Shown piece by piece: positions 16,891 to 32,215 of a stretch of DNA of 64,000 nucleotides; position 1 is the stretch's first letter; every line of letters starts with the position of its first letter. A model generated the notes under the pieces. That model ran no database searches. It was not told where the DNA came from and worked only from the letters and a program-made list of their open reading frames with translations. Where the stretch lies: positions 639,854 to 703,853 of the forward strand of contig NZ_LMVB01000001.1 in assembly GCF_001510645.1 (NCBI RefSeq), read 5' to 3'. The DNA comes from Paenibacillus sp. FJAT-29882 (lineage in GTDB: Bacteria > Bacillota > Bacilli > Bacillales > DSM-1321). Position numbers and translations under genes: made by a program.

Positions 16891-17060
16891 AGTTGCATAC
16901 AGATGGATAATTGAATTGAAAAAAGCCACTTTGAAGATCAAGAAAATTCCAGCCGTCCATAAAAAAATCATTTTGCCTATTTTTTAGGAGTTTGTTATGT
17001 TTAAATGTGATCCTTTATTAAAAGTTTGAGAAAAAGATCGATTTTTAGGGAGTGGTATGT

Positions 17061-18350
17061 TTGTTTCAATCAATGGAAGAGGTAATGGACTATTTATATA
17101 GTAGAGAATCGAAGCTTGGGATGGACTTCGGGCTTGCACGGATGGAGAATCTTTTAAAAGAGCTCAGGAATCCAGAAAAGAGCTTTCAATCCATACATAT
17201 TGCTGGATCAAATGGCAAAGGCTCGACATTGAATGCCTTAAAAGAAATCTTAATGGCTCAAGGTCTTAAAGTTGGCAGTTTTACTTCACCACATCTAGAA
17301 AAAGTGAACGAAAGAATGATGATAAATGAAACGATGATCTCAGATGAAGAAATCATTGAACATATGAATACCCTTTATCCTTTATTGGAAGAAGGACAAG
17401 TAGGATATCGAGCTACTTTTTTTGAGATTATTACGATCCTATCCTTTCTTTATTTTCAAAAAAAAGAGATGGACATTGCGCTCATTGAAACTGGATTAGG
17501 TGGTAGGCTTGATTGTACGAATGTCATCACTCCTTTACTATCTATTATCACGTCGATTTCTTTAGAGCATACGAATATTCTTGGAAATACTTTGGCTGAA
17601 ATCGCATCTGAAAAGGCGGGCATTATTAAACATGGTGTTCCGGTTATTAGTGGTGTAACGGAAGAGGAACCAGCTACGGCTATAATGGAGTATGCCACAG
17701 TACAGGATGCAAACCTTTATTGTATAAATAAAGAAATCTTCGTGAATGAGCCTAGCCAAGTTCAGGATGGCCAATATTTTTCGTTTAAAATGGGGCATAC
17801 AACGCTTGAACAAATCGACCTTAAAATGCTCGGACGTCATCAGGTGAATAATGCGGCGCTAGCTATTGCAGCAGTAAGGCTATTAATTGAAAAATACCAT
17901 CTAGAAATCTCTGAAAATAGCATTCGGCAAGGGTTGGCAAAAGCACATTGGGCTGGGCGATTTGAAGTGTTACCAGGTCATATCATTTTAGATGGTGCTC
18001 ATAACCCTGCTGGAATGAAAGTTTTGTTGGAAACATTACAAACTAGATATCCTGATTTGAATTATCATTTTGTTTTTACTGCTTTACAAGATAAAGACTA
18101 CAATCAAGTGTTAAGCATGGTAGATGAACAAGCAGCATCGATTATCTTTACCGAAATTGATTTTAAGCGAGCAGCATCCGCACAGGAACTTTTTGAAAAA
18201 AGTAAGATGGATAAGAAAAAGGCCATCATAAACTGGCAGGAAGCGATCGATTATGCACTGAATCATCGAACCATCAATGATTTAGTCATCGTCACAGGTT
18301 CCCTCTATTTTCTCGCACTTGCCCGACCGTATATCATGAAAAATAGTTGA
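17061..18350 (+). CDS. folC: Folylpolyglutamate synthase / dihydrofolate synthase
   Basis: Adds glutamate to dihydropteroate and folates. The 429-aa Mur-ligase-type protein has the P-loop GSNGKGST, the SFTSPHLEKVNERM motif, ETGLGGRLDCTN and the C-terminal VLPGHIILDGAHNPAGM. TTG 17061 follows TTAGGGAGTGG; the frame opens at a GTG (17052) overlapping that RBS, and ATG 17073 is an alternative. As in B. subtilis, it precedes the prepilin-processing locus. Confidence 0.93.
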   Translation: MFQSMEEVMDYLYSRESKLGMDFGLARMENLLKELRNPEKSFQSIHIAGSNGKGSTLNALKEILMAQGLKVGSFTSPHLEKVNERMMINETMISDEEIIEHMNTLYPLLEEGQVGYRATFFEIITILSFLYFQKKEMDIALIETGLGGRLDCTNVITPLLSIITSISLEHTNILGNTLAEIASEKAGIIKHGVPVISGVTEEEPATAIMEYATVQDANLYCINKEIFVNEPSQVQDGQYFSFKMGHTTLEQIDLKMLGRHQVNNAALAIAAVRLLIEKYHLEISENSIRQGLAKAHWAGRFEVLPGHIILDGAHNPAGMKVLLETLQTRYPDLNYHFVFTALQDKDYNQVLSMVDEQAASIIFTEIDFKRAASAQELFEKSKMDKKKAIINWQEAIDYALNHRTINDLVIVTGSLYFLALARPYIMKNS

Positions 18351-18649
18351 ACAGACGACCGTATTCGATTGAGAAATGAATTTTGCGCGCCGGAGCCCAA
18401 TTTGACGCAAAAATTTATGAAGCCAACTGCCATATTCATACGAGATCAACCCTTTATGACAGTTTTTATAAAAAACCTGTAGCTTAATGATGCGATGGGG
18501 CAATGTTCAGTGGAAACACCAGACTTAGCACGGATATTAACTTCCTGTTTCAAGCATTACGAGCCAGAATTATTAATAGGAATCGATAGTGGTGCTAAGC
18601 GAGGAGGGAGAAACCGGGTATCTCAATATGACGGGTGAAACACATATTT
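18351..18649 (+). other. Gene-free region with strong predicted secondary structure
   Basis: No convincing ORF. CTTAGCAC near 18525 pairs with GTGCTAAG near 18592, enclosing TTCCT/AGGAA. Upstream lie GGGGCAATGTTCAGTGG and downstream GAGGAGGGAGAAACCGGG and GACGGGTGAAACAC. TTTTGCGCGC and TTGACGCAAA (18381-18410) resemble the about 20-bp degenerate arrays seen at 39500 and 47105. It may be a structured leader RNA ahead of 18800, but it matches no riboswitch class I can name. Confidence 0.4.
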
Positions 18650-18726
18650 AAAGATCGGACCTTTCGCAAACTATAGACACTTCATTTGAACTGTGTACAG
18701 TAGGCATTAGGTCGGATCTTTTTTTA
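18650..18726 (+). terminator. Terminator-like hairpin upstream of the envelope gene pair
   Basis: AAAGATCGGACCT (18650) pairs with AGGTCGGATCTTT (18709) apart from one central mismatch, followed by seven T. It could end folC transcription or be the expression platform of the structured region just upstream. Confidence 0.7.
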
Positions 18727-18799
18727 GTTTTGGATTACTTTTTCTAATTCATTGGTTTATGATAGGGATGATAAGTTAAATGCGGGGTGAAGCACTTTG

Positions 18800-19525
18800 A
18801 TGATTATATATACAACAATGATTGCTGTCGTTCTGCTAGCTATCCTCCTGTATACACTTCCTTTGCGAATATCGCGGTCTGGGAGAATAGCTATTTTGAT
18901 ATGTAGTGTTTGTCTCGCAGCAATTCCGCTTGTTGCGAATGATTTTTTTCCGCGTTGGTTTCTGTATATCGCGCAGTTTCTATTGGCTATTCTTATGACT
19001 TATATCATGGTGAATAGACTCGAGTTTTCTCATGGAAAGGAAACAGAAGAAGCCAATTTATCGGAAATGGATCCGTTGTTTTCTTTTGCTGAGTTACAAG
19101 AACGAGCAAAAATGAGTGAAACGGTAGATGAATACTATGCTTCTTCAAAAGAGCAGCCAGAACCATTTATGATTCAAGAAGTTGAAGGGGAATCAGACAC
19201 ATCATTTGTTAAAATTGAAACGATCATGAATAAGCCGCTGGAATTGAAAGAGGATGCTTCTGAATTTATTGATTTTACGAATCGAGAAATTTTGGCGACT
19301 GAGGATACAGATGACCTAGAACCTTTCAGTTCAAGTGAGGAAGAACAGGTTTTTGCAGCAAGAAAGAAAATCTTTGAAAATCTTGAAGCGCAGGTAGCAA
19401 CTTCTATAGAGGACGAGCAGCTGAGCAAGAAAGAAGTAAACCTTGCACCGGCTGAACGTCTCAGTCTGGAGTTTGATGATTTGGAAGAAATGTATTTGAA
19501 AAAAAAGCAAGCGGGGGGACAGTAA
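18800..19525 (+). CDS. Membrane protein with acidic cytoplasmic-type tail, unknown function
   Basis: 241 aa; three hydrophobic segments in the first about 75 residues (IIYTTMIAVVLLAILLYTLP, IAILICSVCLAAIPL, FLYIAQFLLAILMTYIMV), then about 165 residues rich in Glu/Asp/Ser with probable coiled coil and no cysteine pair or catalytic motif. ATG 18800 follows GGGGTGA; TTG 18797 is possible. Its stop abuts the next ATG, so the pair is an operon. The position at the head of the pilus gene cluster suggests a role in pilus or envelope assembly, but this is only context. I do not recognise a family. Confidence 0.6.
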   Translation: MIIYTTMIAVVLLAILLYTLPLRISRSGRIAILICSVCLAAIPLVANDFFPRWFLYIAQFLLAILMTYIMVNRLEFSHGKETEEANLSEMDPLFSFAELQERAKMSETVDEYYASSKEQPEPFMIQEVEGESDTSFVKIETIMNKPLELKEDASEFIDFTNREILATEDTDDLEPFSSSEEEQVFAARKKIFENLEAQVATSIEDEQLSKKEVNLAPAERLSLEFDDLEEMYLKKKQAGGQ

Positions 19526-20851
19526 ATGGAGAAACGCTTCCCTACCTACTTACGGGTTTTAGCAATTGTAGTCCTTTCAACGATTTTTATCATGTCGTTT
19601 TCACAATTAGGAGTCAAAGCCTACGAGAAATTCCTGCAACAAGATCAAAAGTTTGCCGCAAATACATTCATTGGAACTGTTCAGGTTAGTGGCGAGTCTA
19701 CTAAACAAGCAAATGAAAATCTCATCCACACGATTGCTGAATGGCAAAGCAAAAGTCGCCTTTCATTAACCTTTGCAGATCGTAAAATGACGATTCCTAT
19801 GGATTTCATTCATTTTTCGCTAGAAGAATCTGTTCAAGACGCAGAAAACGGTATGGACAATCCATTATTCGCTACTATAACGGAAACAAATATCAGACAG
19901 TTGTTAAAAGAAATTGTGGATGAACAGGTAATTGAAAGGGTAAAAGTAGATCAATTACAAGCGGAAATTCAGAGACAAGCTGGTTTGCTTGATGCGAATG
20001 AGCGAGTGATAAGTTTGACAAAATTCTTTGAGGAATCGGTGTCTGTAAGTGTGATTTCTCATGCAAAAAAGCAACATATCGACGTCAAATCATTATCATC
20101 ATGGGTTGAGAGCACGCATCCAATAACGATTCCAGCTTTCGGCGAGTTTTCTTTCATCAACGATTTGAGTGTGAATGCCGGTAATTGGACGGATGAATTT
20201 TTAACACAAGTAGCCTCTCTAGTATATGAAGCAAGCTTATCAACTAATCTACAAATTCTTGAAAGAAATACAAGTCAGGAAGTGCCTGTTGGGGTTACAG
20301 CAGGCTATGAAGCCAAAGTCAATCGAAACGGAATGGACTTGAAATTAGCCAATCCTAATGACTTCGAAATGACAGTTACAATCAAAGCTACTCAACCAGG
20401 TGTGCTCATCGTTGAAATTAGTGGATACGAGACAGAACAACAATATAAAGTCGTATTAAAAGATTCGAAGACCATCCCTTACCGGAAGATCATTCAATAC
20501 ACAGCATTATTGCCAAGCGGTTCAGAAACGATTAAGAAGTCAGGTAAACTGGGATATTCAGTATCCGTTTATCGGGAAACGTATAATTCATTGAATGAAA
20601 AACTGGATTCCGTGCAAATTTCGAATGACTTTTATTTACCTGTGAATGAGGTTGTTTTGAAGGAAATACCTGTGGAGTCTGAGGTAATAGGGAGAGATGA
20701 TATGGAATTAGAACTGATTGAAGAAGGTGAAGATGATCATTCGGACGAAGAACTAGATGCGCAACTGAGAGTTGATGAAGAACTTGGTGAAGACTCAATA
20801 GAAGAGAAACTACCATTGGATACAAAGGAAAAAGATAAATCTATAGACTAG
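19526..20851 (+). CDS. Extracytoplasmic protein with degenerate VanW-like C-terminus
   Basis: 441 aa with a single N-terminal membrane anchor (LRVLAIVVLSTIFIMSF). Residues about 45-200 resemble the PG_binding_4 region that precedes VanW domains (FIGTVQVSGESTKQANENL). Then LVYEASLSTNLQILERNTSQ and NGMDLKLANPNDFEMTVTIK align by eye with the VanW pattern around ...ERHxHS and GxDxKFxNxxxxPI. The usual GGGxCQVSSTLYNA motif is not recognisable, so the domain looks degenerate. The tail after about 385 is highly acidic. Likely acts at the cell wall; a role in pilus passage is inference. Confidence 0.55.
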   Translation: MEKRFPTYLRVLAIVVLSTIFIMSFSQLGVKAYEKFLQQDQKFAANTFIGTVQVSGESTKQANENLIHTIAEWQSKSRLSLTFADRKMTIPMDFIHFSLEESVQDAENGMDNPLFATITETNIRQLLKEIVDEQVIERVKVDQLQAEIQRQAGLLDANERVISLTKFFEESVSVSVISHAKKQHIDVKSLSSWVESTHPITIPAFGEFSFINDLSVNAGNWTDEFLTQVASLVYEASLSTNLQILERNTSQEVPVGVTAGYEAKVNRNGMDLKLANPNDFEMTVTIKATQPGVLIVEISGYETEQQYKVVLKDSKTIPYRKIIQYTALLPSGSETIKKSGKLGYSVSVYRETYNSLNEKLDSVQISNDFYLPVNEVVLKEIPVESEVIGRDDMELELIEEGEDDHSDEELDAQLRVDEELGEDSIEEKLPLDTKEKDKSID

Positions 20852-20859
20852 ACTTGAGA

Positions 20860-20901
20860 AATGGCTGCCAAATATTTTTGGCAGCCATTCTGGTTATTTT
20901 T
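20860..20901 (+). terminator. Terminator after the VanW-like gene
   Basis: Perfect stem ATGGCTGCCAAA / TTTGGCAGCCAT with a short AT loop, followed by a T-rich tract. It separates the 18800-20851 pair from the opposite-strand prepilin gene. Confidence 0.8.
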
Positions 20902-20970
20902 CTAATCATCTGTTACTTCATTTTTAGTGAGTTATAAACCCGACCTTTTTTGTAAAATCATTTGTATTTG

Positions 20971-22350
20971 TTAATCAATCTTACTTAGTGTCTGAAGTGG
21001 AAAATCTTTAGGATCCCTTATATACTGTTCTATACCCTTGAATGTAATAGTAGTTCCCCCACTTGTCACATTAAAACCATTTCTAGCAATTACTACACCT
21101 TCAAATGATTCACCACTAAAAGTTACCTTGCCATTTGGGGCAAATAAGATCCCTGTCATTTTTAAGCCCCCGCTATTTATATTAATATCTCTCTGACTAA
21201 CAATGATTGCGTTAGTAAAAGTATTTACATATTTTCCTAAACCACTATCATAATAGCTTTGAACATTTATGCTATTCCCATATAATCTCATATTATCAGG
21301 TTTTATCGTTTGGGTATATCCGTGATCCTTATACCACTGAGAATCTTTTAATGGTGGAATATCCGTATAACTCTTAGTTAACTTTGGAACATCAGCTTTA
21401 AGAATCACTTTGTCCAGAATAGATTGATGATAATTATTAGGATATTTTAAAGTCCCTTTATAATAAATACTTGCATTTCCTTCTATCGTAGGTGTCCAAT
21501 CCAATTCAACATTCCCTTGAACGTAAACATTTCCATGAATGATAGCATCTTTGAGCTTAAGATTTCCATTAACATATACATCTCCATATATATGACGTGT
21601 TCCACCCCACAAGGTTACATCACCATTCACATATATCGTTCCTGGAGATGTAGGTGAACCCAAACCTGCACTACCTCCATCTATATTTACGGACCCATTT
21701 ATATTAATATTAGAAACATTACTAAATGAACCACCGTTTAATTGACTGCTAAGCAAATTTCCTCCAACAATAATCGTGGCATTAGGTCCGTTCACTTGAT
21801 TACCTTGAAATTCAAACTGTGAACCATACACAAAAATATCATTCTTCACTAGAAAAGTGTAAAAATCTTCCACTGTACTAGGGCTAGGAGGCTTTACAAT
21901 CTCACCCGCAATAGGCTGATTCGTTGTCCCTAGTAACACCGTTTCCAAGTTGTATTCGTTTTGATAGTGATCTTTTATAGTAAAAGCTACTTTGAAAGTT
22001 GATGTAGACAACAGCTGTATACTTTGCTCTGAAACGACTTTAGTCCCATTGATTAGTACTTCTGTAAAAAGATAATTTGTTTCTGTTGCTAATGGATTTT
22101 TCTTTTCTTTCTCTGTGTATAACATGCCAGAACTATACCAAATACTATCTCCATTCTCATGCATCGATCGCAACTGGGTCATGACAATATTTGCTTCTTG
22201 TCTCAATTCGTTATGCGATTGTGTCTTCTCCTTAACGTGCAGCGTTTGAAAAAACACACCATACACAACACTCCCAATAAATCCTGTAATGGCTAAAGCG
22301 GCTAGCACTTCTATTAAAGTAATGCCAGATTCCTTGTTTACCTGTTTCAT
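20971..22350 (-). CDS. Prepilin-like protein with large beta-solenoid-type passenger
   Basis: 459 aa from ATG 22350 (GTGGGGAA 6-7 bases upstream); the frame continues to ATG 22383, which has no separate RBS. The N-terminus has a type IV prepilin signal, NKESG/ITLIEVLAALAITGF, with Gly at -1 and Glu at +5, then a pilin-like stretch to about residue 130. From about 165 to 310 it is made of short Gly/Asn/Val-rich strands (NINGSVNIDG, IYVNGDVTLWG, DVYVNGNLKL, NVYVQGNVEL) spaced like rungs of a right-handed beta-solenoid. A C-terminal domain ends in KGIEQYIRD. It is the only pilus gene on the minus strand. Best guess: a minor pilin that puts an adhesin-like passenger at the pilus tip. Confidence 0.75.
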   Translation of the reverse strand: MKQVNKESGITLIEVLAALAITGFIGSVVYGVFFQTLHVKEKTQSHNELRQEANIVMTQLRSMHENGDSIWYSSGMLYTEKEKKNPLATETNYLFTEVLINGTKVVSEQSIQLLSTSTFKVAFTIKDHYQNEYNLETVLLGTTNQPIAGEIVKPPSPSTVEDFYTFLVKNDIFVYGSQFEFQGNQVNGPNATIIVGGNLLSSQLNGGSFSNVSNININGSVNIDGGSAGLGSPTSPGTIYVNGDVTLWGGTRHIYGDVYVNGNLKLKDAIIHGNVYVQGNVELDWTPTIEGNASIYYKGTLKYPNNYHQSILDKVILKADVPKLTKSYTDIPPLKDSQWYKDHGYTQTIKPDNMRLYGNSINVQSYYDSGLGKYVNTFTNAIIVSQRDININSGGLKMTGILFAPNGKVTFSGESFEGVVIARNGFNVTSGGTTITFKGIEQYIRDPKDFPLQTLSKID

Positions 22351-22388
22351 GAAATTCCCCACTTTTTGATAAAATTGATCCATTCCCT

Positions 22389-22408
22389 ATTATAGTTTGT
22401 TATATAAT
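22389..22408. promoter_or_regulatory. Back-to-back -10 boxes of divergent prepilin genes
   Basis: ATTATA at 22389-22394 reads TATAAT on the minus strand (towards 22350), and TATAAT at 22403-22408 reads towards 22439. Only 8 bp separate them, so polymerase could not occupy both. The -35 elements are not clear. Confidence 0.45.
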
Positions 22409-22438
22409 GAATAAAAAGACATTAGGTGGTAGCAATTC

Positions 22439-22858
22439 GTGAATAATCTAAAAAATAATCAAGCCTTCACTCTTATTGAAGTTCTAGCTTCCATCACAAT
22501 CCTTGGTATTGTGTTAACGATATTTTTATCCTTCTTCTCAAATGCAATGACATTTTCTACAAAAACAGAAGATAAATTAACAGCAATTAATCTAGCTGAA
22601 CAAGAACTTTATGAGGTAACAAATAGCTTGGAAACATATTGTAAAACAAACGATTGCCAAACTATCCCAGTAGATAAGTATATTCGTCCATCTATTCCAT
22701 TAAATCAAAAAAACTATCTTTCAACCGTGACACCTTTAACACAAAGTAGACAAGAAAGCTCACTAGGCTTACTTCCTATCTCTATAAGAATAGAATCAGA
22801 AGACCATAAAGAACTAACGATTGCATATGGATATGTAGATGTAAGCCTCAACAATTAG
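22439..22858 (+). CDS. Minor prepilin, PilV-like
   Basis: 139 aa. The prepilin signal is NNQA/FTLIEVLASITILGIVL: Glu at +5 is present, but Ala replaces the usual Gly at -1, still accepted by some prepilin peptidases. After the helix are two close cysteines (YCKTNDCQT) that could form a disulfide. The GTG start follows AGGTGG. The length and the TLIEVL pattern fit PilV/GspI-type minor pilins. The gene is visibly AT-rich relative to its neighbours and is paired with the next prepilin, 11 bp away. Confidence 0.75.
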   Translation: MNNLKNNQAFTLIEVLASITILGIVLTIFLSFFSNAMTFSTKTEDKLTAINLAEQELYEVTNSLETYCKTNDCQTIPVDKYIRPSIPLNQKNYLSTVTPLTQSRQESSLGLLPISIRIESEDHKELTIAYGYVDVSLNN

Positions 22859-22869
22859 GAGAATAATTG

Positions 22870-23373
22870 ATGAAACAAAAAAATGAAGCAGGTTATACAT
22901 TAGTGCTTGTATTATTAACGATTACATTAATCCTTATTTTTTCAGTAACTTTAATTAGCAATGTTTTAAACAGTTCTTTGCAGAATCAAAAATCAGAGGG
23001 AAATATACAGTTACATCAATCATCACGAATGGGCTTAAAGTATGTTGAGAAGGAGATAAACACAGCAAATAACGAAGCAAAAAAAGCGGTCATAAAATGG
23101 CTAAATGAGTTCCCTACCACTAACGCTATTCCTACAGACGCTGAAATTGCTGTTAAATACGAAAAAGAATTTAGAACTAAATTAGTAGATAAAGAAATCA
23201 TATCATCTGATAAAATGTATCAATTTAAAATAGATTATATTAGTATAACAAGAGTAGATAACACTCTTACGGTCACATATACTATTACTCCCTCATTGAA
23301 TAATGTGTATGCTCAAGCAGATTCGGAACGAGAAAAAACCATTAATATAAAGATCCAAGAACAAAATCGCTAA
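22870..23373 (+). CDS. Minor prepilin, PilX/GspK-like
   Basis: 167 aa with signal NEAG/YTLVLVLLTITLILIF: Gly at -1, but no Glu at +5. This is characteristic of PilX/GspK-type components that start the pilus tip. Mature domain is largely soluble, Lys/Glu/Asn-rich. ATG 22870 follows AGGAGA; a TTG precedes it. It is coupled to the PilV-like gene and AT-rich like it. With the two other minor prepilins it would form the tip complex primed by the assembly machinery encoded downstream. Confidence 0.65.
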   Translation: MKQKNEAGYTLVLVLLTITLILIFSVTLISNVLNSSLQNQKSEGNIQLHQSSRMGLKYVEKEINTANNEAKKAVIKWLNEFPTTNAIPTDAEIAVKYEKEFRTKLVDKEIISSDKMYQFKIDYISITRVDNTLTVTYTITPSLNNVYAQADSEREKTINIKIQEQNR

Positions 23374-23421
23374 GCAACCTCTCTCCCATCTCAAGTGTAG
23401 ATGTACTCACTTGGGATCCTT

Positions 23422-23574
23422 TCACGCTTGCCGCATCGTTCCATGGCAAAAAGGGCAGACTGCTTCAACTTCATCTCCCTTTTTCAAATTATAACTAAAT
23501 TCTTATACAACAAAGTTAGGTACCTCGTCTAATTTCCTACAATCCATGCAAACAAAAGGGACGAGTTCTTCTTT
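23422..23574 (-). pseudogene. Remnant of a small double-CxxC (zinc-ribbon-like) protein
   Basis: Reading the minus strand from 23574 gives KEELVPFVCMDCRKLDEVP, a TAA (23505-23503), then EFSYNLKKGDEVEAVCPFC, HGTMRQA and TGA (23424-23422). Both halves are in one frame and together make a compact about 50-residue protein with CMDC and CPFC pairs, typical of a zinc knuckle. The internal TAA can come from GAA by one change (VVEEF to VV*EF). The upstream codon is also TAA and no start is visible, so the gene looks dead. I do not recognise the family. Confidence 0.55.
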
Positions 23575-23723
23575 TTATCTAAATTGAATGGAAAAACATC
23601 CCAATATCATTATTCGTATAGTACTACAAAGATTGGGTAATTCGCTCTATAATTTAAGTAGATTTCATGTTATTTTGAATGATAGCAGACAATGATCAAA
23701 GGATTCCAGATAGGGGTGATAGA

Positions 23724-25367
23724 ATGAAAAGTGAAAGAAAACGTTTAGGCGATTTACTTGTTGAAGCAGGGATCATTACGGAAGAAAAATTGCAGGATAC
23801 ATTAACATACAAAAAAGAAGGGCAAAAAATGGGTGATGCCTTATTGGAACGCGGATTAATCAATGAGCAGCAACTCATTGAGGTGCTTGAGTTCCAACTA
23901 GGTGTACCTCAGATCAGCTTATTTCGTTATCCCGTAGATACAGCCGTCTTAAGCTTGATTGCAAAAGAGTTTGCCTTCAGAAACTTAGTCATGCCCATAA
24001 AAAAAGAAGGGAATCAACTCATTGTAGCGATGCATGATCCGATGGATTATATCGCATTAGATGATATGGGACTATCGACTGGTTTGGTGATCTCACCTGT
24101 CATAGCGAAAAAGGAAGAAATCATTGCGTCACTCTATAAATATTATAGCAAGACAGAGACATTTGAAGAATTAGATATGAACAGGATCGCGACTGAGAAT
24201 CTAGATGGTGAAGATGCACCAGCTGTTAAGCTTGTCAATCAACTTCTTGAAGCGGGCGTACAGATGAAAGCGAGCGATATTCATATCGATCCACAGGAAT
24301 CAAACATCCTTATTCGCTATCGGGTCGATGGGATTTTACGTACAGAACGTGTCCTTTCGAAGAATATTTATAGTTTGTTAATTGCTAGAATTAAAATTTT
24401 GGCTAATTTGAACATTACCGAAACGAGACTGCCACAGGATGGCAGAATTAAATTGGATGTGAATGCTACGCCTATTGATTTACGAATTTCATTATTGCCA
24501 ACCGTATTTGGTGAAAAAATCGTCATTCGTATTTTAGATTTATCCAATGTGATGATTCATCTTTCACAGCTTGGTTTTAATCAAGTGAATGTCAAAGCCT
24601 TTGTTGCGATGATTGAACGGCCGTCTGGGATGATTCTGATTACGGGGCCAACCGGTTCTGGAAAAACATCGACTCTATATGCGGCATTGAATCATTTGAA
24701 TACTGAACAGGTTAATATTATTACTGTGGAAGATCCTGTGGAATATCAAATGAAGGGCATCAATCAAGTGCAGGTCAATCCAAGCGTAGGTCTAACGTTT
24801 GCTAGTGGCTTGCGCTCGATTTTACGACAAGATCCAAACATTGTCATGATTGGTGAAATTCGTGATCGCGAGACAGCGGAAATAGCTGTTCGGGCATCTT
24901 TGACAGGGCATCTTGTATTAAGTACTTTGCATACCAATAGTGCGCTTTCGACGATTCCGAGACTATTAGATATGGATGTTGAACCGTATTTGGTTGTTTC
25001 CTCCTTAACTGGCGTCATCGCTCAGAGACTGATTCGCAAAGTCTGTCCGGATTGTAAACTAGCATACACACCATCTGCCATGGAAAGAAATTTGTTTCAA
25101 AAACGTGGCATCCCTGTGCAATTCTTATATCGTGGCAAAGGATGTCCAAGCTGTCAAAACAGTGGCTATCATGGCAGGATTGCGATTCATGAAGTATTGA
25201 ATATCGATGATACAATTCAAACGATGATGATGAATAATAAGCCACTTAGTGAAATCCAGCAATATACGGTTCGCAATGGGATGATTTTCCTCATTGACGA
25301 TGGCTTGCTTAAAGCCAAACAAGGATTGACAACGGTAGAGGAAGTACTGCGGGTAGCGGGGACATGA
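23724..25367 (+). CDS. pilB: Type IV pilus assembly ATPase PilB
   Basis: Cytoplasmic hexameric ATPase that powers pilus extension. 547 aa: N-terminal MshEN/T2SSE_N domain (LGDLLVEAGIITEEKLQDTL, GDALLERGLINEQQLIEVLE), a central ATPase with Walker A GPTGSGKTST near residue 307, Asp box EDPVEYQ, Walker B region ILRQDPNIVMIGEIRD, His box TGHLVLSTLHT, and the zinc tetracysteine motif (CPDC near 440, CPSC near 473). ATG 23724 follows GGGGTGAT; the frame extends to 23679 without a better start. Full PilB/GspE length, clearly not ComGA-sized (about 350 aa). It heads pilB-pilT-pilC. Confidence 0.93.
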   Translation: MKSERKRLGDLLVEAGIITEEKLQDTLTYKKEGQKMGDALLERGLINEQQLIEVLEFQLGVPQISLFRYPVDTAVLSLIAKEFAFRNLVMPIKKEGNQLIVAMHDPMDYIALDDMGLSTGLVISPVIAKKEEIIASLYKYYSKTETFEELDMNRIATENLDGEDAPAVKLVNQLLEAGVQMKASDIHIDPQESNILIRYRVDGILRTERVLSKNIYSLLIARIKILANLNITETRLPQDGRIKLDVNATPIDLRISLLPTVFGEKIVIRILDLSNVMIHLSQLGFNQVNVKAFVAMIERPSGMILITGPTGSGKTSTLYAALNHLNTEQVNIITVEDPVEYQMKGINQVQVNPSVGLTFASGLRSILRQDPNIVMIGEIRDRETAEIAVRASLTGHLVLSTLHTNSALSTIPRLLDMDVEPYLVVSSLTGVIAQRLIRKVCPDCKLAYTPSAMERNLFQKRGIPVQFLYRGKGCPSCQNSGYHGRIAIHEVLNIDDTIQTMMMNNKPLSEIQQYTVRNGMIFLIDDGLLKAKQGLTTVEEVLRVAGT

Positions 25368-25383
25368 TTAGGGGGCTAGATGT

Positions 25384-26424
25384 GTGAAGGAGAAATTGGA
25401 TTATATTTTAAAAGCTGCTTTTGATTTAGGGACGTCTGATATTCATTTAACGGTAGGTGTACCGCCGATTATGAGACTTCACGGTGACTTGAAACAGTAT
25501 GGAAAAGACAACCTTACGCCAGCAGACACAGAATTAATGGCGAAAGTAATGATTCCTGAATCGATGTGGCAGGCGTTTAAGGACAAAGGAGAGTTGGATC
25601 TGTCATATGGAATCCCTGGCGTTTCGCGCTTCCGGGTCAATGCTTATCATCAGCGTTCTTGTATCAGCCTTGCGATTCGAGTCGTACCAACCGAAGTTCC
25701 GACTTTAGAACAATTGAAGCTACCATCTGTTTTACAAGCGATATCTGAAAAAAGGCAAGGGCTCGTTTTAGTGACAGGACCGACTGGAAGCGGGAAATCA
25801 ACGACGCTTGCAGCGATGATTGATTATATTAATAAAAATATGAAGAAACATATTATTACGCTTGAAGATCCAATCGAGTATTTACATAAACATCAATTGA
25901 GTATTATTGATCAACGGGAAGTTGGTTTTGATACACAAAATTTCTCAAATGGCCTGCGCGCTTGTTTGCGACAAGATCCTGATATTATTTTAGTCGGGGA
26001 AATGCGCGATTTAGAAACGATTTCCACAGCGATTACCGCAGCGGAAACGGGTCACTTAGTACTTGGCACCTTGCATACAACAGATGCACCGGCAACAATT
26101 GACCGGATCATTGATGTGTTCCCGCCCAATCAGCAACCGCAAGTCCGTGTTCAGCTTGCCTCCGTCTTATCTGCGATTATCTCACAGCGTTTATTGCCGT
26201 CAAAAGACCGGGCAGGAAGGGTGGCAGCGATCGAGATTCTGGTGAATAATGCTGCTGTCAAAAATTTAATTCGTAATGAAAAAATCCATCAAATTGCAAG
26301 TGTGATGCAGACGAGTAAATCGGCTGGCATGCAAACGATGGAAATGTCGATTAAACAATTAGTGGAAGAAGGGAAGATTGATTCTTATTCTGCCCTCCCT
26401 TATTTAGAAGAAGGAATCATCTAA
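25384..26424 (+). CDS. pilT: Type IV pilus retraction ATPase PilT
   Basis: Hexameric ATPase that depolymerises the pilus for twitching motility and DNA uptake. 346 aa with the PilT start (AAFDLGTSDIHLTVGVPPIMRLHG), Walker A GPTGSGKST near residue 131, Asp box EDPIEYLH, LRQDPDIILVGEMRD, and a C-terminal AVKNLIRNEKIHQI in place of the AIRNLIRE motif. No tetracysteine motif, unlike PilB. GTG start after GGGGGCT, 16 bp from the pilB stop. A dedicated PilT distinguishes this from the B. subtilis com pseudopilus, which lacks one. Confidence 0.93.
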   Translation: MKEKLDYILKAAFDLGTSDIHLTVGVPPIMRLHGDLKQYGKDNLTPADTELMAKVMIPESMWQAFKDKGELDLSYGIPGVSRFRVNAYHQRSCISLAIRVVPTEVPTLEQLKLPSVLQAISEKRQGLVLVTGPTGSGKSTTLAAMIDYINKNMKKHIITLEDPIEYLHKHQLSIIDQREVGFDTQNFSNGLRACLRQDPDIILVGEMRDLETISTAITAAETGHLVLGTLHTTDAPATIDRIIDVFPPNQQPQVRVQLASVLSAIISQRLLPSKDRAGRVAAIEILVNNAAVKNLIRNEKIHQIASVMQTSKSAGMQTMEMSIKQLVEEGKIDSYSALPYLEEGII

Positions 26425-27632
26425 TGCCAGTTTTTCACTATCAGGGTAGAGATCGGATGGGAAGAAAAAAACAAGGGAAGATGACGGCGGACACACGAAA
26501 AGAGGCGGTCACAAGGCTAAGAGAAACAGGGATAGCTGTGACGAGTATTGATGAACTAAAGGGCATTTTATATAAAGAAATCTCCTTGGGTAGAAAAAGC
26601 ATAAAAAATCGTGATTTTATTATATATCTGCGCCAGTTTTCAACATTAATTCAAGCAGGGATCAGTGTTGTAGAAGCGACAAAGATTTTGGCGGAACAAA
26701 CATCAAGTAAACTGCTGCGAAAAACATTAGAACATATTGTTCAAAGTTTAGAAGATGGAAACCCTTATTCTGAAGGAGCAGAAAAGCAACGAAATGTGTT
26801 CCCACCTCTCTTCATAAATATGATGCGAGCGGGTGAAGCTGGCGGGAATCTAGAAGAGGTTCTGGAACGAATGGCAGTTTATTTTGAGAAACAGTATCAG
26901 ACAAGGCAAAAAGTACAATCGGCGTTGATGTACCCAGCAACGGTTGGTTGCTTGAGTATTATTATTATCATTTTTATGTTAGCTAAAGTCGTACCAACTT
27001 TCGCCAATATGTTTACTTCATTTGGTAGTGAGCTTCCTTTCTTTACGAAGTTGATTCTCAATCTTGGTGGATTTTTTGAAAGGTTTTGGTGGGTATTTCT
27101 CTTATTAGCGGTTGGATTATATATCTTCATTCGCTATATACGATCCAATAGCGAGATGAAATACTATCTTGATTATTGGCTTTTAAGAATGCCTATCTTC
27201 GGGCAACTGATTCAAAAGGCGGAGATTGCAAGAATGACGAGAACATTAAGCTCGCTTTTCAAGAGTTCTGTGCCAATTTTGCAATCTTTAACAATGGTGG
27301 AAAAGATTTTAGGAAATGAAGTGTTAACCAAGGTGATGAAACAATCGCGACTTTCGATTGAAAAAGGCGAGTCCATGGCCATTCCGATGGAAAGACACTG
27401 GGCATTTCCACCGATGGTCACGCAAATGATCATCGTCGGTGAAAAATCTGGTACTTTGGATGTCATGCTAGATCGCGTCGCTGATTTTTACGAAATGGAA
27501 GTAGACAATGCAACAAATCAAATGAAATCTCTTATTGAACCCTTTCTCATTATCTTTCTAGCTGTAGTTGTTGGAGGCATTGTGGCAGCTATTGCCGTTC
27601 CGATGTTCACTATATTTAACAAAATCCAATAA
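26424..27632 (+). CDS. pilC: Type IV pilus inner-membrane platform protein PilC
   Basis: Polytopic platform protein on which PilB and PilT act. 402 aa with two GspF/T2SSF repeats: FIIYLRQFSTLIQAGISVVEATKIL and ARMTRTLSSLFKSSVPILQSLT. There are three main TM helices (VGCLSIIIIIFMLAKVVPTF, FWWVFLLLAVGLYIFIRYI, FLIIFLAVVVGGIVAAIAVPMF). The ATG shares a base with the pilT stop. A large terminator follows, so pilB-pilT-pilC forms a transcription unit separate from the pilin. Confidence 0.93.
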   Translation: MPVFHYQGRDRMGRKKQGKMTADTRKEAVTRLRETGIAVTSIDELKGILYKEISLGRKSIKNRDFIIYLRQFSTLIQAGISVVEATKILAEQTSSKLLRKTLEHIVQSLEDGNPYSEGAEKQRNVFPPLFINMMRAGEAGGNLEEVLERMAVYFEKQYQTRQKVQSALMYPATVGCLSIIIIIFMLAKVVPTFANMFTSFGSELPFFTKLILNLGGFFERFWWVFLLLAVGLYIFIRYIRSNSEMKYYLDYWLLRMPIFGQLIQKAEIARMTRTLSSLFKSSVPILQSLTMVEKILGNEVLTKVMKQSRLSIEKGESMAIPMERHWAFPPMVTQMIIVGEKSGTLDVMLDRVADFYEMEVDNATNQMKSLIEPFLIIFLAVVVGGIVAAIAVPMFTIFNKIQ

Positions 27633-27766
27633 AAATGTTCAATATAGTAGAAAAAGTAGTTGTCAACTAGTGAATGAGTCTTATATACTAGCAATATATA
27701 AATAGATTGGAAACTGTGATTGATCATTTTTATTTGGGCACTTAAATGATCAGGAGTGAGTAGTGC

Positions 27767-27830
27767 AACCCGCCAATTTATGTTTAAATCCAAATTTTTG
27801 GAATTTAAATATAAACGTGGCGGTTTTTTT
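27767..27830 (+). terminator. Terminator after pilC
   Basis: AACCCGCCA / TGGCGGTT outer stem and TTTAAATCC / GGAATTTAAA inner stem, followed by seven T. Just upstream, TGATCATTT / AAATGATCA (27721-27752) forms another perfect 9-bp inverted repeat. Confidence 0.85.
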
Positions 27831-27831
27831 G

Positions 27832-28018
27832 TATGAAGGACATGGGGACGGGGCTTCGCGACTTATTCATCTAGCTAATCTATTTAGCGGGTTTACTTAT
27901 CTGTTCGAGAAGGCTTCCGAAAATCCGGCTCCGCACTGCCACCATTGTGATTAGGCGAGTGTAGCGTGCTTCATGACCGATCCTTCATAGTAACTGGTGG
28001 CGTTTTAACGCCCTTTTA
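27832..28018 (-). repeat. Intergenic structured repeat of about 180 bp (copy B2, inverted)
   Basis: On the minus strand it runs GGCGTTAAAACGCCACC, ATGAAGGATCGG, GCTACACTCGCC, AATGGTGGCAGTGCGGAGCC, a variable centre, GCGAAGCCCCGTCCCCAT, GTCCTTCAT, matching copy B1 (7696) along its whole length except the centre. A short ORF crossing it (27763-27954, plus strand) is an artefact of the repeat. The pilin RBS and start follow 80 bp later. Confidence 0.8.
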
Positions 28019-28096
28019 GGTTTTGTATGAAGTTACAAGCTGTTTTATTACACCGTGTCATACTACATAAAAAAATGAACTGAGGAGTGAACGTAC

Positions 28097-28585
28097 ATGA
28101 TTAAACGAGTAAAAGCATTGATTCATGATCAAAAAGGGTTAACCCTAGTTGAACTTTTGGCTGTCATTGTGATTTTAGGAATCATCGCAGCGATTGCTGT
28201 GCCGAGTATTGGAAAGATTATTGATAATAGTAAGAAGGATGCTCATCTTGCGAATGCACAGCAAGTGATTGCAGCAGCTAAATTGTCCGATGCAGCCAAT
28301 GAGAAATTTGGAGCAGACGGGGAAATTACTTTAGCGGAACTTATTAATGGTGGGTATATTGACGCGGACATTAAGCCTAGTGCTAGTGCCTCTGATGTGT
28401 CTGGTCTTAAAGATCCAGATGGAGGAGTATACTCCGTTGGCGGTGTTATAGTCGAGGAAACAGCCGGTAAAAAATCATATAAAGTATATTTAGTAGGAAG
28501 TAAGCGGTCTGTTGGAGCTAAAGAGTCTCCTGTTCCATCTTCGGCTTTAGATGATCGAACGAAAGTTATACCTAATGTGAATTGA
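28097..28585 (+). CDS. pilA: Type IV pilin, probable major subunit
   Basis: 162 aa with a classical prepilin signal HDQKG/LTLVELLAVIVILGIIAAIAVPSIG: Gly -1, Glu +5, Pro22-like proline. This is followed by an alpha1-C helix (NSKKDAHLANAQQVIAAAKL) and a small globular domain with no cysteines. The ATG follows GAGGAGTG. It stands alone between a terminator and its own strong terminator, the arrangement expected for a highly expressed major pilin. The name pilA is by role, not by recognised orthology. Next comes the peptidase gene. Confidence 0.85.
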   Translation: MIKRVKALIHDQKGLTLVELLAVIVILGIIAAIAVPSIGKIIDNSKKDAHLANAQQVIAAAKLSDAANEKFGADGEITLAELINGGYIDADIKPSASASDVSGLKDPDGGVYSVGGVIVEETAGKKSYKVYLVGSKRSVGAKESPVPSSALDDRTKVIPNVN

Positions 28586-28605
28586 TACATGTATTATGAT
28601 ACTCC

Positions 28606-28636
28606 CACTCCTTCCCGCAAGGAGTGATTTTTTTTA
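28606..28636 (+). terminator. Terminator after the pilin gene
   Basis: Perfect stem CACTCCTT / AAGGAGTG with a 5-nt loop and eight T. Confidence 0.92.
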
Positions 28637-28816
28637 TCTAATAATAATCAATCTGCTTTATCAATCAATTGAACCTTCACGGCATTATCTTATTTAAATC
28701 TATATAACTTCCTGTATAATAAAAGGAACAACATGACGTCAAAACTCCACAACCAGTATGAAGGAAGGCTTATTGAAAACGGGGAGACCAAAACTCCAAT
28801 AAAAAGGGAGAAATCC

Positions 28817-29572
28817 ATGACACTATTTATTTACAGCTACATAGGTATTTTAGGCTTAGTTCTCGGATCATTTTACAATGTCGTTGGCTTGCGGGTACCG
28901 GAGAAACAGTCAATCGTACGGCCGCGGTCACAGTGTCCAACTTGCAAAAGAACGTTGACAGCTACGGATTTGGTACCTGTGTTGTCATATGTCTTTTTAA
29001 GAGGAAAATGCCGGAACTGTCATTCGAAAATATCGCTGCTCTATCCACTTGTTGAGCTTTTAACGGGTTTATTGTTTATGCTTGCATTCTATGAATTTGG
29101 ATGGACAGGTGAACTAGTAATCGCACTTACCTTCATCTCGTTGTTAGTCATTATTTTTGTATCTGATATTGTCTATATGATTATTCCTAATAAAGTGCTG
29201 TTGTTTTTTGTTCCTCTTGTTTTAGTTGGCCGTTTAGTCGTGCCATTAGATCCATGGTGGGATATGTTTGTCGGCGCGGTCGTTGGCTTTGGTCTGCTTT
29301 TTCTCATTGCTGTCATTAGTAAAGGCGGCATGGGTGGGGGAGACATTAAACTGTTTTTCGTGTTGGGCTTGGTTCTCGGTCTCAAGCTGACTCTCCTTAC
29401 GTTTGCCTTGGCAAGCTTCTTTGGAGCATTGTATGGAGTGGCTGGCATGATACGGGGGAATTATAAGAAACGGCAGCCGATTCCATTTGGCCCATTTATT
29501 GCAATGGGTGCGTTGCTTTCCTATTTTTATGGAAATGAAATCTTAAACTATTACTTTACTATGTTTTATTGA
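28817..29572 (+). CDS. pilD: Prepilin peptidase (PilD/ComC)
   Basis: Membrane aspartic protease that cleaves and N-methylates prepilins. 251 aa: N-terminal cytoplasmic domain with the tetracysteine zinc site CPTC...CRNC, catalytic Asp in SDIVYMIIPN and in KGGMGGGDIKL (GGGDIK), and seven or eight TM segments. The frame is open from 28733, but ATG 28817 follows AAAGGGAG and begins the conserved TM segment. This is the counterpart of comC, which sits between folC and spoIIB in B. subtilis; here it is embedded in the pilus cluster and would process all four prepilins seen. Confidence 0.93.
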   Translation: MTLFIYSYIGILGLVLGSFYNVVGLRVPEKQSIVRPRSQCPTCKRTLTATDLVPVLSYVFLRGKCRNCHSKISLLYPLVELLTGLLFMLAFYEFGWTGELVIALTFISLLVIIFVSDIVYMIIPNKVLLFFVPLVLVGRLVVPLDPWWDMFVGAVVGFGLLFLIAVISKGGMGGGDIKLFFVLGLVLGLKLTLLTFALASFFGALYGVAGMIRGNYKKRQPIPFGPFIAMGALLSYFYGNEILNYYFTMFY

Positions 29573-29580
29573 AGCGGGTG

Positions 29581-30561
29581 ATGAAGAGAGTGAGTGCATT
29601 TAATAGACAACATCGAGTTCATCTAGCCATTAAAGATCGGTATATTCGGTTTGTGGAATCTGGAAAAAAGCGAAAACTGCTAGCCTATGGGCAAAAGAGC
29701 CTTCCAGATGGTGTGATCGTTGAGGGGCAAATCAAAGATCGTGAAACGCTCGAACTGATTGTCGATGAAATGATCGATCAATGGAAGCTTAAAGGGAAAA
29801 AAGTTTCATTCTGTGTACCTGATTCAACGGTAATCGTTAGGAAAATTCATGTTTCGAATGAGATTCCAGATCATGAACTGAATGGCTATTTATATATGGA
29901 ATTGGGCCAGAGCATCCATCTGCCTTTTGCAGACCCTTTAATCGAAGCTGTGCCTTTAGAAAAAACGGCTGAAAACCGAGACGTGTTGTTATTTGCTTCA
30001 AGAGAAACCGTGTTACATGAATTTACAGCATTATTAAAGGGGACATCTCTTAAACCTGATATAGCAGATCTATCAGTGCTATCGCTATATAGAATGTATT
30101 ATCATCTAGGTCTTGCTAAGCAGGATGAGCATGTATTAATGGTGCAAATTGGGTTAGATGCATTTGTTTTATCTGTTTTTAACGAACATAAACCCGTTTT
30201 TTCGCGTCATTATCCTTTGAAATTTCATGATGAGCACTTTGAACTTTCTAGAAGCCGCAGTGGATCGGAATTTTATTCTTGGGTGGGTGCACCGAACGAA
30301 TTAAACAGTCAATCTCAAGATATTACCATGGAAATCGAACGTTTCCTATCCTATTACCATTTCAATCTTACAAAAGGAAATCATCGTATCTCAAAGCTCG
30401 TTTTGTCAGGAGACCATCCTTGTATGGAAACTTTTTATTCGGATATACATACTGCGATTGAAGTAGCCGTTCAGCCATTACTTGAACCACTATTTCAAAC
30501 GAAAAAAGGAAGGAACATCCCTCCTGTATATGCTGAATGTATTGGACTAGCGTTAAAGTAG
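29581..30561 (+). CDS. pilM: Type IV pilus alignment protein PilM
   Basis: Cytoplasmic actin-like protein that binds the PilN N-terminus. About 326 aa with the PilM pattern: VHLAIKDRYIRFVESG (phosphate-1-like), LPDGVIVEGQIKDRETL, KVSFCVPDSTVIVRKIHV, and a C-terminal EIERFLSYYHFN with SKLVLSGDHP. Start is unclear: ATG 29581 lies right beside GGGTGATG, whereas GTG 29590 has that site at a usual distance. It overlaps pilD by 4 bases if the TTG at 29569 is used. pilN follows 8 bp after the stop. Confidence 0.85.
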   Translation: MKRVSAFNRQHRVHLAIKDRYIRFVESGKKRKLLAYGQKSLPDGVIVEGQIKDRETLELIVDEMIDQWKLKGKKVSFCVPDSTVIVRKIHVSNEIPDHELNGYLYMELGQSIHLPFADPLIEAVPLEKTAENRDVLLFASRETVLHEFTALLKGTSLKPDIADLSVLSLYRMYYHLGLAKQDEHVLMVQIGLDAFVLSVFNEHKPVFSRHYPLKFHDEHFELSRSRSGSEFYSWVGAPNELNSQSQDITMEIERFLSYYHFNLTKGNHRISKLVLSGDHPCMETFYSDIHTAIEVAVQPLLEPLFQTKKGRNIPPVYAECIGLALK

Positions 30562-30569
30562 GTGTCAAC

Positions 30570-31160
30570 ATGCTTGTAGATATTAACTTATTACCTAAAA
30601 AAGAAAAAAAACGACGTACCGTTGTCCTCTTGATTTTGTTGACGGGGATTGTGCTATTGGTCAGTGGATTCTTCTTCATGACTACCTATCAAGCACAGAA
30701 GGCCCGATTGGTAGAACTGGAGCAAGAGTTAACGTTGACTAAAGAATTAAAAGTCGCGAAGGAAAAAGAGCGAACTCAGAGTGTTGAGTCCAAATCTGTG
30801 CGTGAATTGACAACGGCGATTCAATGGGTTGAAGAACATCAAAGTTCAACCTTTTTCATCATGAGAACTGTATCTTCATTATTACCTGAACGAGGGTTTA
30901 TCGTAGATTTTTCCTATCAAGAAGATGGGACTGTGCAGCTTACTGTTCAGTTCGATTCTTCCCGGGAGGCAGCTTATTACTTGAAAAGTATTTCAAATTC
31001 AGCCATTATTTCAGGAGCTAAGTTACAAACCCTTTCAACGGAGAAGCTTGGGGATGGTGTGACAGCGGAGCCTATCCTTCCACGTTACAATGCACAATAT
31101 GAATTAACGGTGGACAAGGCAGCCATTCAAGCATCAATACATGGGGAGGTAGGGTCATAA
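30570..31160 (+). CDS. pilN: Type IV pilus alignment protein PilN
   Basis: Bitopic membrane protein bridging PilM and PilO. 196 aa starting MLVDINLLPKKEKKRR, where INLLP is the PilM-binding motif at its usual place. This is followed by one TM helix (TVVLLILLTGIVLLVSGFFF), a coiled coil and a ferredoxin-like domain. ATG 30570 follows TAGGTG; the frame is open further upstream inside pilM. Its TAA shares a base with the pilO ATG. Confidence 0.88.
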   Translation: MLVDINLLPKKEKKRRTVVLLILLTGIVLLVSGFFFMTTYQAQKARLVELEQELTLTKELKVAKEKERTQSVESKSVRELTTAIQWVEEHQSSTFFIMRTVSSLLPERGFIVDFSYQEDGTVQLTVQFDSSREAAYYLKSISNSAIISGAKLQTLSTEKLGDGVTAEPILPRYNAQYELTVDKAAIQASIHGEVGS

Positions 31161-32122
31161 TGCTTTCCCGAAAAGTAGTGTCGTTGATTCTCACACTTTT
31201 GTTGCTTTTTTTTATCATAGGTGTGAGTGGCGTGTATTATTTTGAATATAAACCATTACAGGACAAAATGGCTAGTCTTAACCGTTCGATTACGAAGGAA
31301 CAAGATGAGCTAGAAAAGTTAGATCAAAAAGAGCAGAAAAGTGCTGCCATTAATACGATGGCTCTACAACGGAAGCTTCCAGTGAGTGAACTTGTTGATC
31401 AATTTGTATTATTGCTTGAAGAAGTGGAAGTAGCATCTGGTAGTCTTATTACGAATCTAGCATTTACAGATGCCGAACAAGCAGGTGATTCGGTAGATGA
31501 ATTAGAAGCTGGAAAACTTGAGACAGCAGTAGAAACATCAAATACAAATCCACTACCTGAAGGAGTAAAGAAATTAACAGCGGTCATTACGGTTGAATCA
31601 CCAACATATCTTGAACTGGAATCATTTGTGAATGGACTCGAGAAATTGGAGCGCCTTACAAAAGTAGAAAGCCTTCAATACACCGGACTCAAAGAAAGTA
31701 GTCGTTTAATGAACGCAGAAGATAGACTTACATTTAGTTTAACAGTAGCTACTTATTATTATCCTAAATTAGAAGAACTTAAAAATCAGCTTCCAAAATA
31801 TCAGGAACCGAAACCAGCCAATAAGATAAACCCATTATTTGAAGCGAATCTTCCTCAGCTATCGGAGAAAAAAGCAGAGGAAAAATCGAACAAACCAGCT
31901 GAGCAAGATAAGGATACTGACGGGGAAATTGTTAAACGGAATCAAATAACATACAAAGTGTACACCCATAAAGTGCAACCAGGGGATACCCTTTTTCAAC
32001 TTGCCATTTTATATTATAATAGCCGAAACGGTGAAAAGATGATTAAAGATTGGAATCATCTGAAACAACTTGAAGCGAACACGACAATTGAAATTCCTGT
32101 TCCTACTGATGGCAAAAATTGA
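31160..32122 (+). CDS. pilO: PilO-like alignment protein with C-terminal LysM-like domain
   Basis: 320 aa: N-terminal TM helix (VVSLILTLLLLFFIIGVSGVY), coiled coil (residues about 35-70), PilO-type ferredoxin-like domain, a Pro/Lys/Glu linker (about 210-262), then about 50 residues YKVYTHKVQPGDTLFQLAIL...WNHLKQLEANTTIEIPVP with the LysM pattern (PGDTLFxLA, N, IxIP). The LysM-like module would lie outside the membrane and could bind peptidoglycan, taking the place of PilP/PilQ links absent from Gram-positives. That role is inference. Overlaps the pilN stop by one base. Confidence 0.82.
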   Translation: MLSRKVVSLILTLLLLFFIIGVSGVYYFEYKPLQDKMASLNRSITKEQDELEKLDQKEQKSAAINTMALQRKLPVSELVDQFVLLLEEVEVASGSLITNLAFTDAEQAGDSVDELEAGKLETAVETSNTNPLPEGVKKLTAVITVESPTYLELESFVNGLEKLERLTKVESLQYTGLKESSRLMNAEDRLTFSLTVATYYYPKLEELKNQLPKYQEPKPANKINPLFEANLPQLSEKKAEEKSNKPAEQDKDTDGEIVKRNQITYKVYTHKVQPGDTLFQLAILYYNSRNGEKMIKDWNHLKQLEANTTIEIPVPTDGKN

Positions 32123-32133
32123 CGAAAGCTATT

Positions 32134-32171
32134 GATAACGAGACGACAAAAGTCTTGTTATTTTTTTTTAT
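32134..32171 (+). terminator. Terminator closing pilMNO
   Basis: ATAACGAGAC / GTCTTGTTAT stem (one G-U pair) followed by about ten T, 12 bp after pilO. Confidence 0.88.
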
Positions 32172-32215
32172 TCCTATGATAGGATGGAAAAAAATGTGCG
32201 TAGGGGGCGAAAAAA

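Follow-up and report, generated by a model that had tools for sequence, protein, structure and literature searches.

Our analyses show that the pilW-type gene of a type IV pilus cluster, carried by a 64,000-nucleotide stretch of bacterial DNA (hereafter the window), codes for a prepilin whose stem is continued by a large head predicted to fold as a beta-solenoid (Table 1). This protein is probably a J-type modular pilin that would show its solenoid head at the tip of a retractable pilus and bind a ligand on surfaces, the head being an exchangeable part. One clear exchange of heads between near-identical stems is observed in two related loci. Three elements of this picture are new, namely a head family that looks dedicated to pili, the clear exchange and the occurrence of an extended tail on either the J or the K subunit. 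Four others were already known: modular pilins, the pilin-solenoid combination of ComZ, a pil operon in Bacillus and the exchange of pilin C-termini by shufflons.

Table 1. Features of the pilin cassette and of the adjoining pilus genes, with positions in the window.
Feature	Position	Strand	Evidence
Terminator-like hairpin between the VanW/G5 gene and pilW	20860..20889	+	
pilW-type gene, 459-aa modular minor pilin (probable J subunit) with beta-solenoid head	20971..22350	-	ORF, Pfam, model
Beta-solenoid head, residues 161-459; tapirin/ComZ/ice-binding-protein-like fold (predicted)	20974..21870	-	
Stem-head linker, residues 148-160; pLDDT mostly <50	21871..21909	-	
Pilin stem, residues 1-147; signature [SE]HxxLRQEAN; long N-terminal helix 12-65, beta strands 93-139	21910..22350	-	
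Leader peptide MKQVNKESG (residues 1-9), with predicted cleavage ahead of Ile10 and a Glu as fifth mature residue	22324..22350	-	
Intergenic region between the divergent pilW and pilV	22351..22438		
pilV-type minor pilin (probable I subunit)	22439..22858	+	Best NCBIfam match ComGE 2.8e-8, below cut-off
pilX-type minor pilin (probable K subunit), without Glu5	22867..23373	+	
PilB-type extension ATPase	23679..25367	+	T2SSE 7.5e-134, MshEN 1.8e-16
PilT-type retraction ATPase	25384..26424	+	T2SSE 1.2e-50; PilT name by eye
PilC-type platform protein	26424..27632	+	T2SSF 1.2e-60
Likely major pilin	28097..28585	+	N_methyl 6e-8
PilD prepilin peptidase	28733..29572	+	A24_N_bact 4e-35, Peptidase_A24 4.8e-21
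PilM, PilN, PilO	29569..32122	+	PilM_2 5.8e-20; PilN 17.9 bits and PilO 18 bits, both below cut-offs

The pilW reading frame has two possible starts. The first ATG (20971-22383 on the minus strand, 470 residues) was rejected because the nearest orthologue (G009, 93% identical) has a stop codon within the 11 extra codons; the second (20971-22350, 459 residues) is also preferred because it leaves a leader of nine residues, MKQVNKESG, a normal length for a prepilin, directly followed by ITLIE. The prepilin signal that a preliminary description had read from the sequence is recovered by Pfam (N_methyl at 4e-5; 23.4 bits, with the cut-off at 21.2). As in modular type IV pilins, a class III signal with Glu5, with ITLIE after Gly9 and with an N-terminal hydrophobic helix (modelled at residues 12-65), is combined with an additional folded module beyond the pilin fold, here the solenoid modelled at residues 161-459.

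The neighbouring genes and several profile matches place this protein among the minor pilins of the tip. The ComGF profile matches 7 of the 13 proteins in our alignment (best 4.8e-6), the window PilW scoring 22.6 bits against an equivalog cut-off of 80. In the part of the literature accessible to us, ComGF, ComGE and ComGG are equated with the J, I and K subunits, of which K lacks Glu5 (PMC10790768). Among the loci collected, Glu5 is present in all 29 PilW proteins and absent from all 28 PilX proteins; for L096 PilX, where our script matched upstream of the true site, this absence was read by eye, and L048 had no detected PilX. The window follows this pattern, its Glu5-bearing PilW being encoded beside an I-type pilin and a K-type pilin devoid of Glu5, and no H subunit was identified in the pilin cassette. 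Window PilW, PilV and PilX are probably the J, I and K subunits of a J-I-K tip cassette, as judged from profile scores that lie below curated cut-offs.

An AlphaFold2 model of the window PilW, built from the 13-protein alignment (mean pLDDT 78), contains a solenoid of short strands over about residues 172-437. Its stem was modelled at low confidence, with 10-residue blocks of 40-77 over residues 11-140; the head blocks, counted from residue 161, have values of 81-97, except for 68 at residues 201-210 and 63 for the last nine residues. The rung-like repeats noticed in the preliminary description are real in this sense, since a motif picked after inspecting the sequence, G[ND][VLAI], is found seven times within residues 161-459, where shuffled sequences average 1.45 (3 of 10,000 shuffles reached seven), and the structure prediction proposed as their check did return solenoid rungs. 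The further C-terminal domain invoked at the same time had to be abandoned. Because the structural matches to tapirin 6n2b (model residues 165-455) and to ComZ (165-452) continue through that part, we rejected an arrangement in two domains and consider residues 161-459 as one solenoid.

The solved folds nearest to the head are the C-terminal domains of Caldicellulosiruptor tapirins, 4wa0, 6n2c and 6n2b (Z 16.2, 15.7 and 15.0; alignments of 238-250 residues at rmsd 3.5-3.6, reaching 3.6 over 250 residues; VIA), and this likeness comes without a sequence match, as a profile of nine heads detected neither tapirins nor ComZ at E up to 1. ComZ (6qvi) comes fourth (Z 11.8, with 198 residues at rmsd 3.3), followed at lower scores by a Thermus bactofilin (Z 9.7) and by DUF3494 ice-binding proteins (up to 9.7), the latter being weaker matches than tapirin or ComZ. 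With Foldseek, 4wa0 was the sole match below 0.001 (E 3.2e-4) and 6n2c reached E 0.055-0.074, the superposition on tapirin being poor overall (TM-score 0.33-0.40, rmsd 11.2 over 398 columns). A viral structure library gave no match at E 0.001. Among Pfam families, only pAdhesive_15 (PF20597) exceeded its cut-off in the head (24.2 and 24.7 bits against 23.8; 3.8e-5), and the likeness is restricted to 37 residues of the 254-position profile, an ‘APNG’ core at the C-terminal end of the head. DUF7305 (PF23981; 17.9 bits against 27), choice-of-anchor A, Bactofilin and FapA all remained below their cut-offs in the window PilW; across the 13 aligned proteins, pAdhesive_15 was found in 8 and DUF7305 in 9 at E 0.01.

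Tapirins are cellulose-binding adhesins. Papers other than the original tapirin studies describe them, in the accessible text, as specific binding proteins linked to pili that aid attachment to lignocellulose. It is because of the similarity to tapirins that an insoluble polysaccharide is our first guess for the ligand, one made by analogy and to which we give somewhat less than an even chance, the other candidates being DNA, the cell’s own wall or protein. A shared fold by itself shows no function, and the similar solenoid of ComZ belongs to a DNA receptor, a similarity that keeps DNA among the candidates. ComZ, which binds DNA, has been proposed as a tip pilin of Thermus thermophilus with a beta-solenoid, according to the part of that study available to us (PMC6561018). 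As in the window PilW, it joins a pilin to a large ice-binding-protein-like beta-solenoid of the same fold and has a GspI-like partner. However, the ComZ solenoid is described as an insertion separating the final two strands of a GspK-like pilin, whereas the window head is C-terminal, after the pilin strands of a Glu5-bearing ComGF-like pilin; no insertion of the ComZ type was seen in the window PilW, whose stem is modelled at low confidence. On the strength of ComZ, the head could be seen as a DNA receptor at the pilus tip serving DNA uptake or DNA-dependent biofilms. We find this unlikely. Tapirins are closer to the head by 3 to 4 Z units, and the genome contains elsewhere three other N_methyl genes (C1:1046246-1047382) that, from their location and motif, are probably the comG set. 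Moreover, monoderm Com pili are reported, in the accessible text, to bind DNA through a ComGD-ComGF interface and with no head (PMC12153270). Finally, the window head has a pI of 6.1 and no excess of basic residues (23 Lys/Arg versus 25 Asp/Glu), although ComZ is likewise described as having no clear positive patch (PMC6561018).

A scan with the stem signature recovered 44 stretches; relatives are encoded by 22 of them, for example in Peribacillus, Sutcliffiella, Neobacillus and Halalkalibacter. Profiles separate their heads into a window-like class A, a shorter class B sharing its C-terminal core with A, and a class C; further stems have no head or an acidic tail only. The PilW of L047 (L047:9992-10804), for instance, has a long Asp/Glu/Arg-rich tail, probably disordered, instead of a solenoid head. 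A C-type model built from six sequences (mean pLDDT 73, blocks of 83-94 over residues 251-390) is a regular solenoid whose nearest fold is again tapirin (Z 15.2-16.0, with a portion of the tapirin chain aligned, other beta-helices being at about 12). A and C heads are therefore both solenoids in the models, yet they hardly match by profile.

Searches with the head profile extended this survey to the order and the phylum. Of 397 genomes of the order, 19 match (1e-6), all of them carrying the head on a prepilin, and 18 have another pilin-like gene within the stretch fetched. The phylum search, covering 398 genomes, yielded 16 match rows in 15 of them, including seven strong full-length matches (the window’s and six others) that are all prepilins; the six foreign ones, from five genomes (L100-L104, L114), all have N_methyl (6 of 6) on stems that look quite different by eye. 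One match (L105) lies where there is no ORF and adjoins a PilT-like frame. The eight weak matches were sorted by eye into five TadG-like proteins, one PilX-like protein, one piece at a contig edge and one protein without a prepilin start (L107), so that by eye most of them belong to other filament-type proteins, L107 being the exception. Within these order and phylum searches, the family looks dedicated to pili, a module for display on filaments. The five TadG-like proteins (L108, L109, L111, L112 and L113, so named by eye) match the head profile weakly at their C-terminal end, at the ‘APNG’ core, and Tad-type systems may show a module like the head too. In two of the foreign proteins the stem and the head are set apart by additional sequence, an InlB-type repeat in L100:1495-3171 and a region with weak Ig-like hits in L103:421-2331.

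The exchange of heads is seen in the Peribacillus loci L093 and L092. Their DNA is 0.91 identical in pilV, 0.96 in the pilV-pilW intergenic region, 0.91 in the pilW stem and 0.93 over the first 600 bases of pilB; identity drops at about codon 141-150 of pilW, the heads being 0.56 identical with 314 gap columns. At the protein level, stems that are 88% identical carry heads of the B and C types, which do not match each other. The pilX genes have also diverged (0.65), so that the change is not confined to the head. No second copy of either swapped head was found in the two swap genomes or in the window genome. When the latter was searched with the window PilW, a single real match was obtained, besides two weak ones at E 0.10 and 0.38. 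A weak match in a 470-aa frame of the same genome (E 0.34) was examined as a silent head cassette and discarded, the 468-aa ORF there being sensor-kinase-like by eye. The three-pilin block varies among species in its orientation and its distance relative to pilB, but we do not claim an active, invertible switch, as 20500-23900, around the window cassette, holds no repeats other than short, imperfect ones. Since second head copies are lacking in these genomes and the repeats are of this kind, the exchange looks evolutionary. It would differ in this from the PilV shufflon of I-complex plasmids, which combines a constant N-terminal pilin stem with alternative C-terminal adhesins (PMC9045228) and in which, according to the portion of that source at hand, a recombinase switches the cassettes within a cell. 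Head state changes nine times on a tree of 25 stems, which was built without the distant L096-L099, the shortened head of L056 being left out of this count, and 6 of the 22 inner branches of this tree are starred, with four long end branches. Because its forks are mostly weak, the case for exchange rests on the L093/L092 pair.

The window gene may have moved as a whole. Compared with L046 (P. asahii) and L092, the identity of its PilW stem is no higher than 36-37%, whereas PilV is 71% and PilB 75-76% identical. Five A-type loci from other genera have heads that share 52-58% of residues with the window head, the values for L053 and L054 being 44% and 36%, and PilV, where found in the A-type loci of other genera, is 40-47% identical to that of the window. 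These values suggest that the window lineage received the entire pilW gene from elsewhere; a fast-changing stem could also explain them. At short distance, dN/dS between the window and two close orthologues, calculated with our own Nei-Gojobori script, is 0.31-0.39 for the head and 0.18-0.27 for the stem, selection being weaker on the head in 3 of 3 comparisons. The head is therefore maintained, less tightly than the stem at this distance. At longer distance it is mostly the head that is the more similar part, as in 16 of 21 pairs among seven A-type loci (a set without L054, which is divergent, and without L044 and L045, which nearly duplicate the window).

The size of PilX appears related to what PilW carries. 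All 12 loci with an A or B head on PilW have a PilX of less than 200 aa, and all eight loci with no solenoid on PilW (seven short proteins, one acidic tail) have a PilX of 314-541 aa; in the eight loci whose heads are of the C type or shortened, PilX size is mixed (149-281 aa). Fisher’s p for this relationship (8e-6) ignores relatedness and is descriptive only. None of the 28 loci having both genes combines a short PilW with a short PilX. An extended tail sits on J or on K. The large PilX tails are rung-like or solenoid by eye only, because no Pfam family exceeded its cut-off in any of the eight loci (none in L095-L099, L047 and L065; sub-cut-off hits only in L052). Four of these PilX-type proteins, of 535-541 aa (L096:13643-15259, L097:15185-16810, L098:13795-15411 and L099:13637-15244), belong to a second pilus lineage of Peribacillus in which PilW is devoid of a large head. 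By eye their tails had seemed DUF7305-like, which Pfam did not bear out, and this slightly lowers the weight we give to the cartridge hypothesis outlined below.

The same observations bear on the idea of a mainly structural head, one that as a bulky cap would nucleate or stabilise the tip, hold it at the wall or limit retraction without a specific ligand. Heads that are more similar than their stems in most A-type pairs are not what a fast-diversifying adhesin would be expected to show, and the absence of loci short in both PilW and PilX would also agree with a cap. Nevertheless, in one pair, stems that are 88% identical bear heads with hardly any profile match to each other, the L047 PilW has its acidic tail only, and the nearest solved folds are binding proteins. 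We consequently see a mainly structural role as improbable and retain a binding head as the better interpretation.

The surrounding cluster provides what a retractable pilus would need. As the preliminary description stated, it includes its own prepilin peptidase (28733-29572, Peptidase_A24 4.8e-21), pilW is its only pilus gene on the minus strand, and the pilin cassette is AT-rich (GC of 32.5-35.7% in 1-kb windows inside 20501-23500; 35.3% at 23001-24000 and 37.3-43.3% in the remaining windows of 17001-34000). That description had seen in this design a pilus-tip adhesin or a wall- or DNA-binding device. With a prepilin-solenoid fusion and a peptidase in the same cluster, a tip-displayed binding device would indeed be the simplest reading of the model, the amendment being that the passenger is a single solenoid. 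The divergence of pilW and pilV is common, being found in 16 of 27 other loci against 11 with both genes on the same strand (in one more, L048, orientation could not be told). Promoter-like sites showed no excess in 20840-23700 (12, against a shuffle mean of 13.7). In 36 genomes of Peribacillus, PilM is present in 12 and the PilW stem in 11, all 11 inside those 12; the twelfth (G003) has merely a 106-aa PilM frame. Searches for PilY1 gave no match in the window genome, nor in the control genomes. The cluster holds other candidates for a role in the pilus. A LysM-like domain at the C-terminus of PilO falls just below its cut-off (20.3 bits against 20.9; region 31160-33202) and the gene after PilO has a SPOR domain (21.6 bits against 21), two domains that may link the pilus alignment complex to peptidoglycan. 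A membrane protein and the VanW/G5 protein (18797-20851) adjoin the pilin cassette, and many relatives have them in their pil clusters as well; their genes may be accessory pilus genes.

The host genus, Peribacillus, to which named relatives assign the window genome, is Gram-positive, so an outer-membrane secretin system is not expected, and the cluster comprises a second T2SSE ATPase of the PilT type, PilM and a major-pilin-like gene. It is for these reasons very improbable that PilW serves as pseudopilin in a secretion-type filament or stays a surface protein that does not assemble, even if GspHIJK-like minor pilins are, in the accessible text, common to type II secretion systems (PMC10790768).

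The new class of tip protein that the preliminary description had envisaged is not supported as such, because modular pilins are well established, with 264 architectures counted in 2021 (PMC8179133), and ComZ was already described as a solenoid tip pilin (PMC6561018), as far as the accessible parts of both papers tell. A pil operon in a Bacillus was likewise reported in 2011, in the part of that study available (PMC3244431). PilB and PilC of Streptococcus sanguinis share with the window PilW a class III signal, a pilin module, a grafted C-terminal binding module, a proposed tip location and a monoderm host, as presented in the accessible text (PMC8179133, PMC9934059). Their heads are described there as a vWA domain and an Ig-like plus lectin module, whereas that of the window is a tapirin/ComZ-like beta-solenoid, and unlike in S. 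sanguinis we have here one pair of near-identical stems with different heads. In the literature on pilin modules, tapirins and solenoids, and Bacillus pili, a scope outside which most subscription papers lie, we found no description of this head family or of its exchange.

Taken together, these data allow us to propose how the system might work. PilD would cleave PilW after Gly9, and PilW (J) would then join PilV (I) and PilX (K) in a minor-pilin complex capping the filament. The solenoid head, of ~300 residues, would be displayed at the tip on a flexible linker and serve as the ligand-binding module, an insoluble polysaccharide, as in tapirins, being the most likely target. Extension by PilB and retraction by PilT would let the cell touch the surface bearing the ligand, hold to it and be pulled towards it. 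In evolution, the stem would act as a holder on which heads are exchanged by recombination, the extended tail being placed on J or K. Much more speculatively, and in our opinion rather doubtfully, the pilus tips of Bacillota could form a general cartridge system, in which pilus-dedicated tapirin-like heads recombine between stems and between J and K with one main head per filament, and in which tapirins, ComZ and the present heads constitute a single family of tip receptors for polysaccharides or DNA.

To our knowledge, the tip ligands of type IV pili in Gram-positive bacteria are known for few species. The family described here occurs on prepilins in several Bacillota lineages, and its nearest structural neighbours are an adhesin that binds cellulose and a tip pilin that binds DNA. 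With different heads on similar stems in related bacteria, the pilus tip resembles a holder for interchangeable tools, and the natural swap pair of Peribacillus makes the question of whether the head sets the ligand directly testable in soil bacteria.
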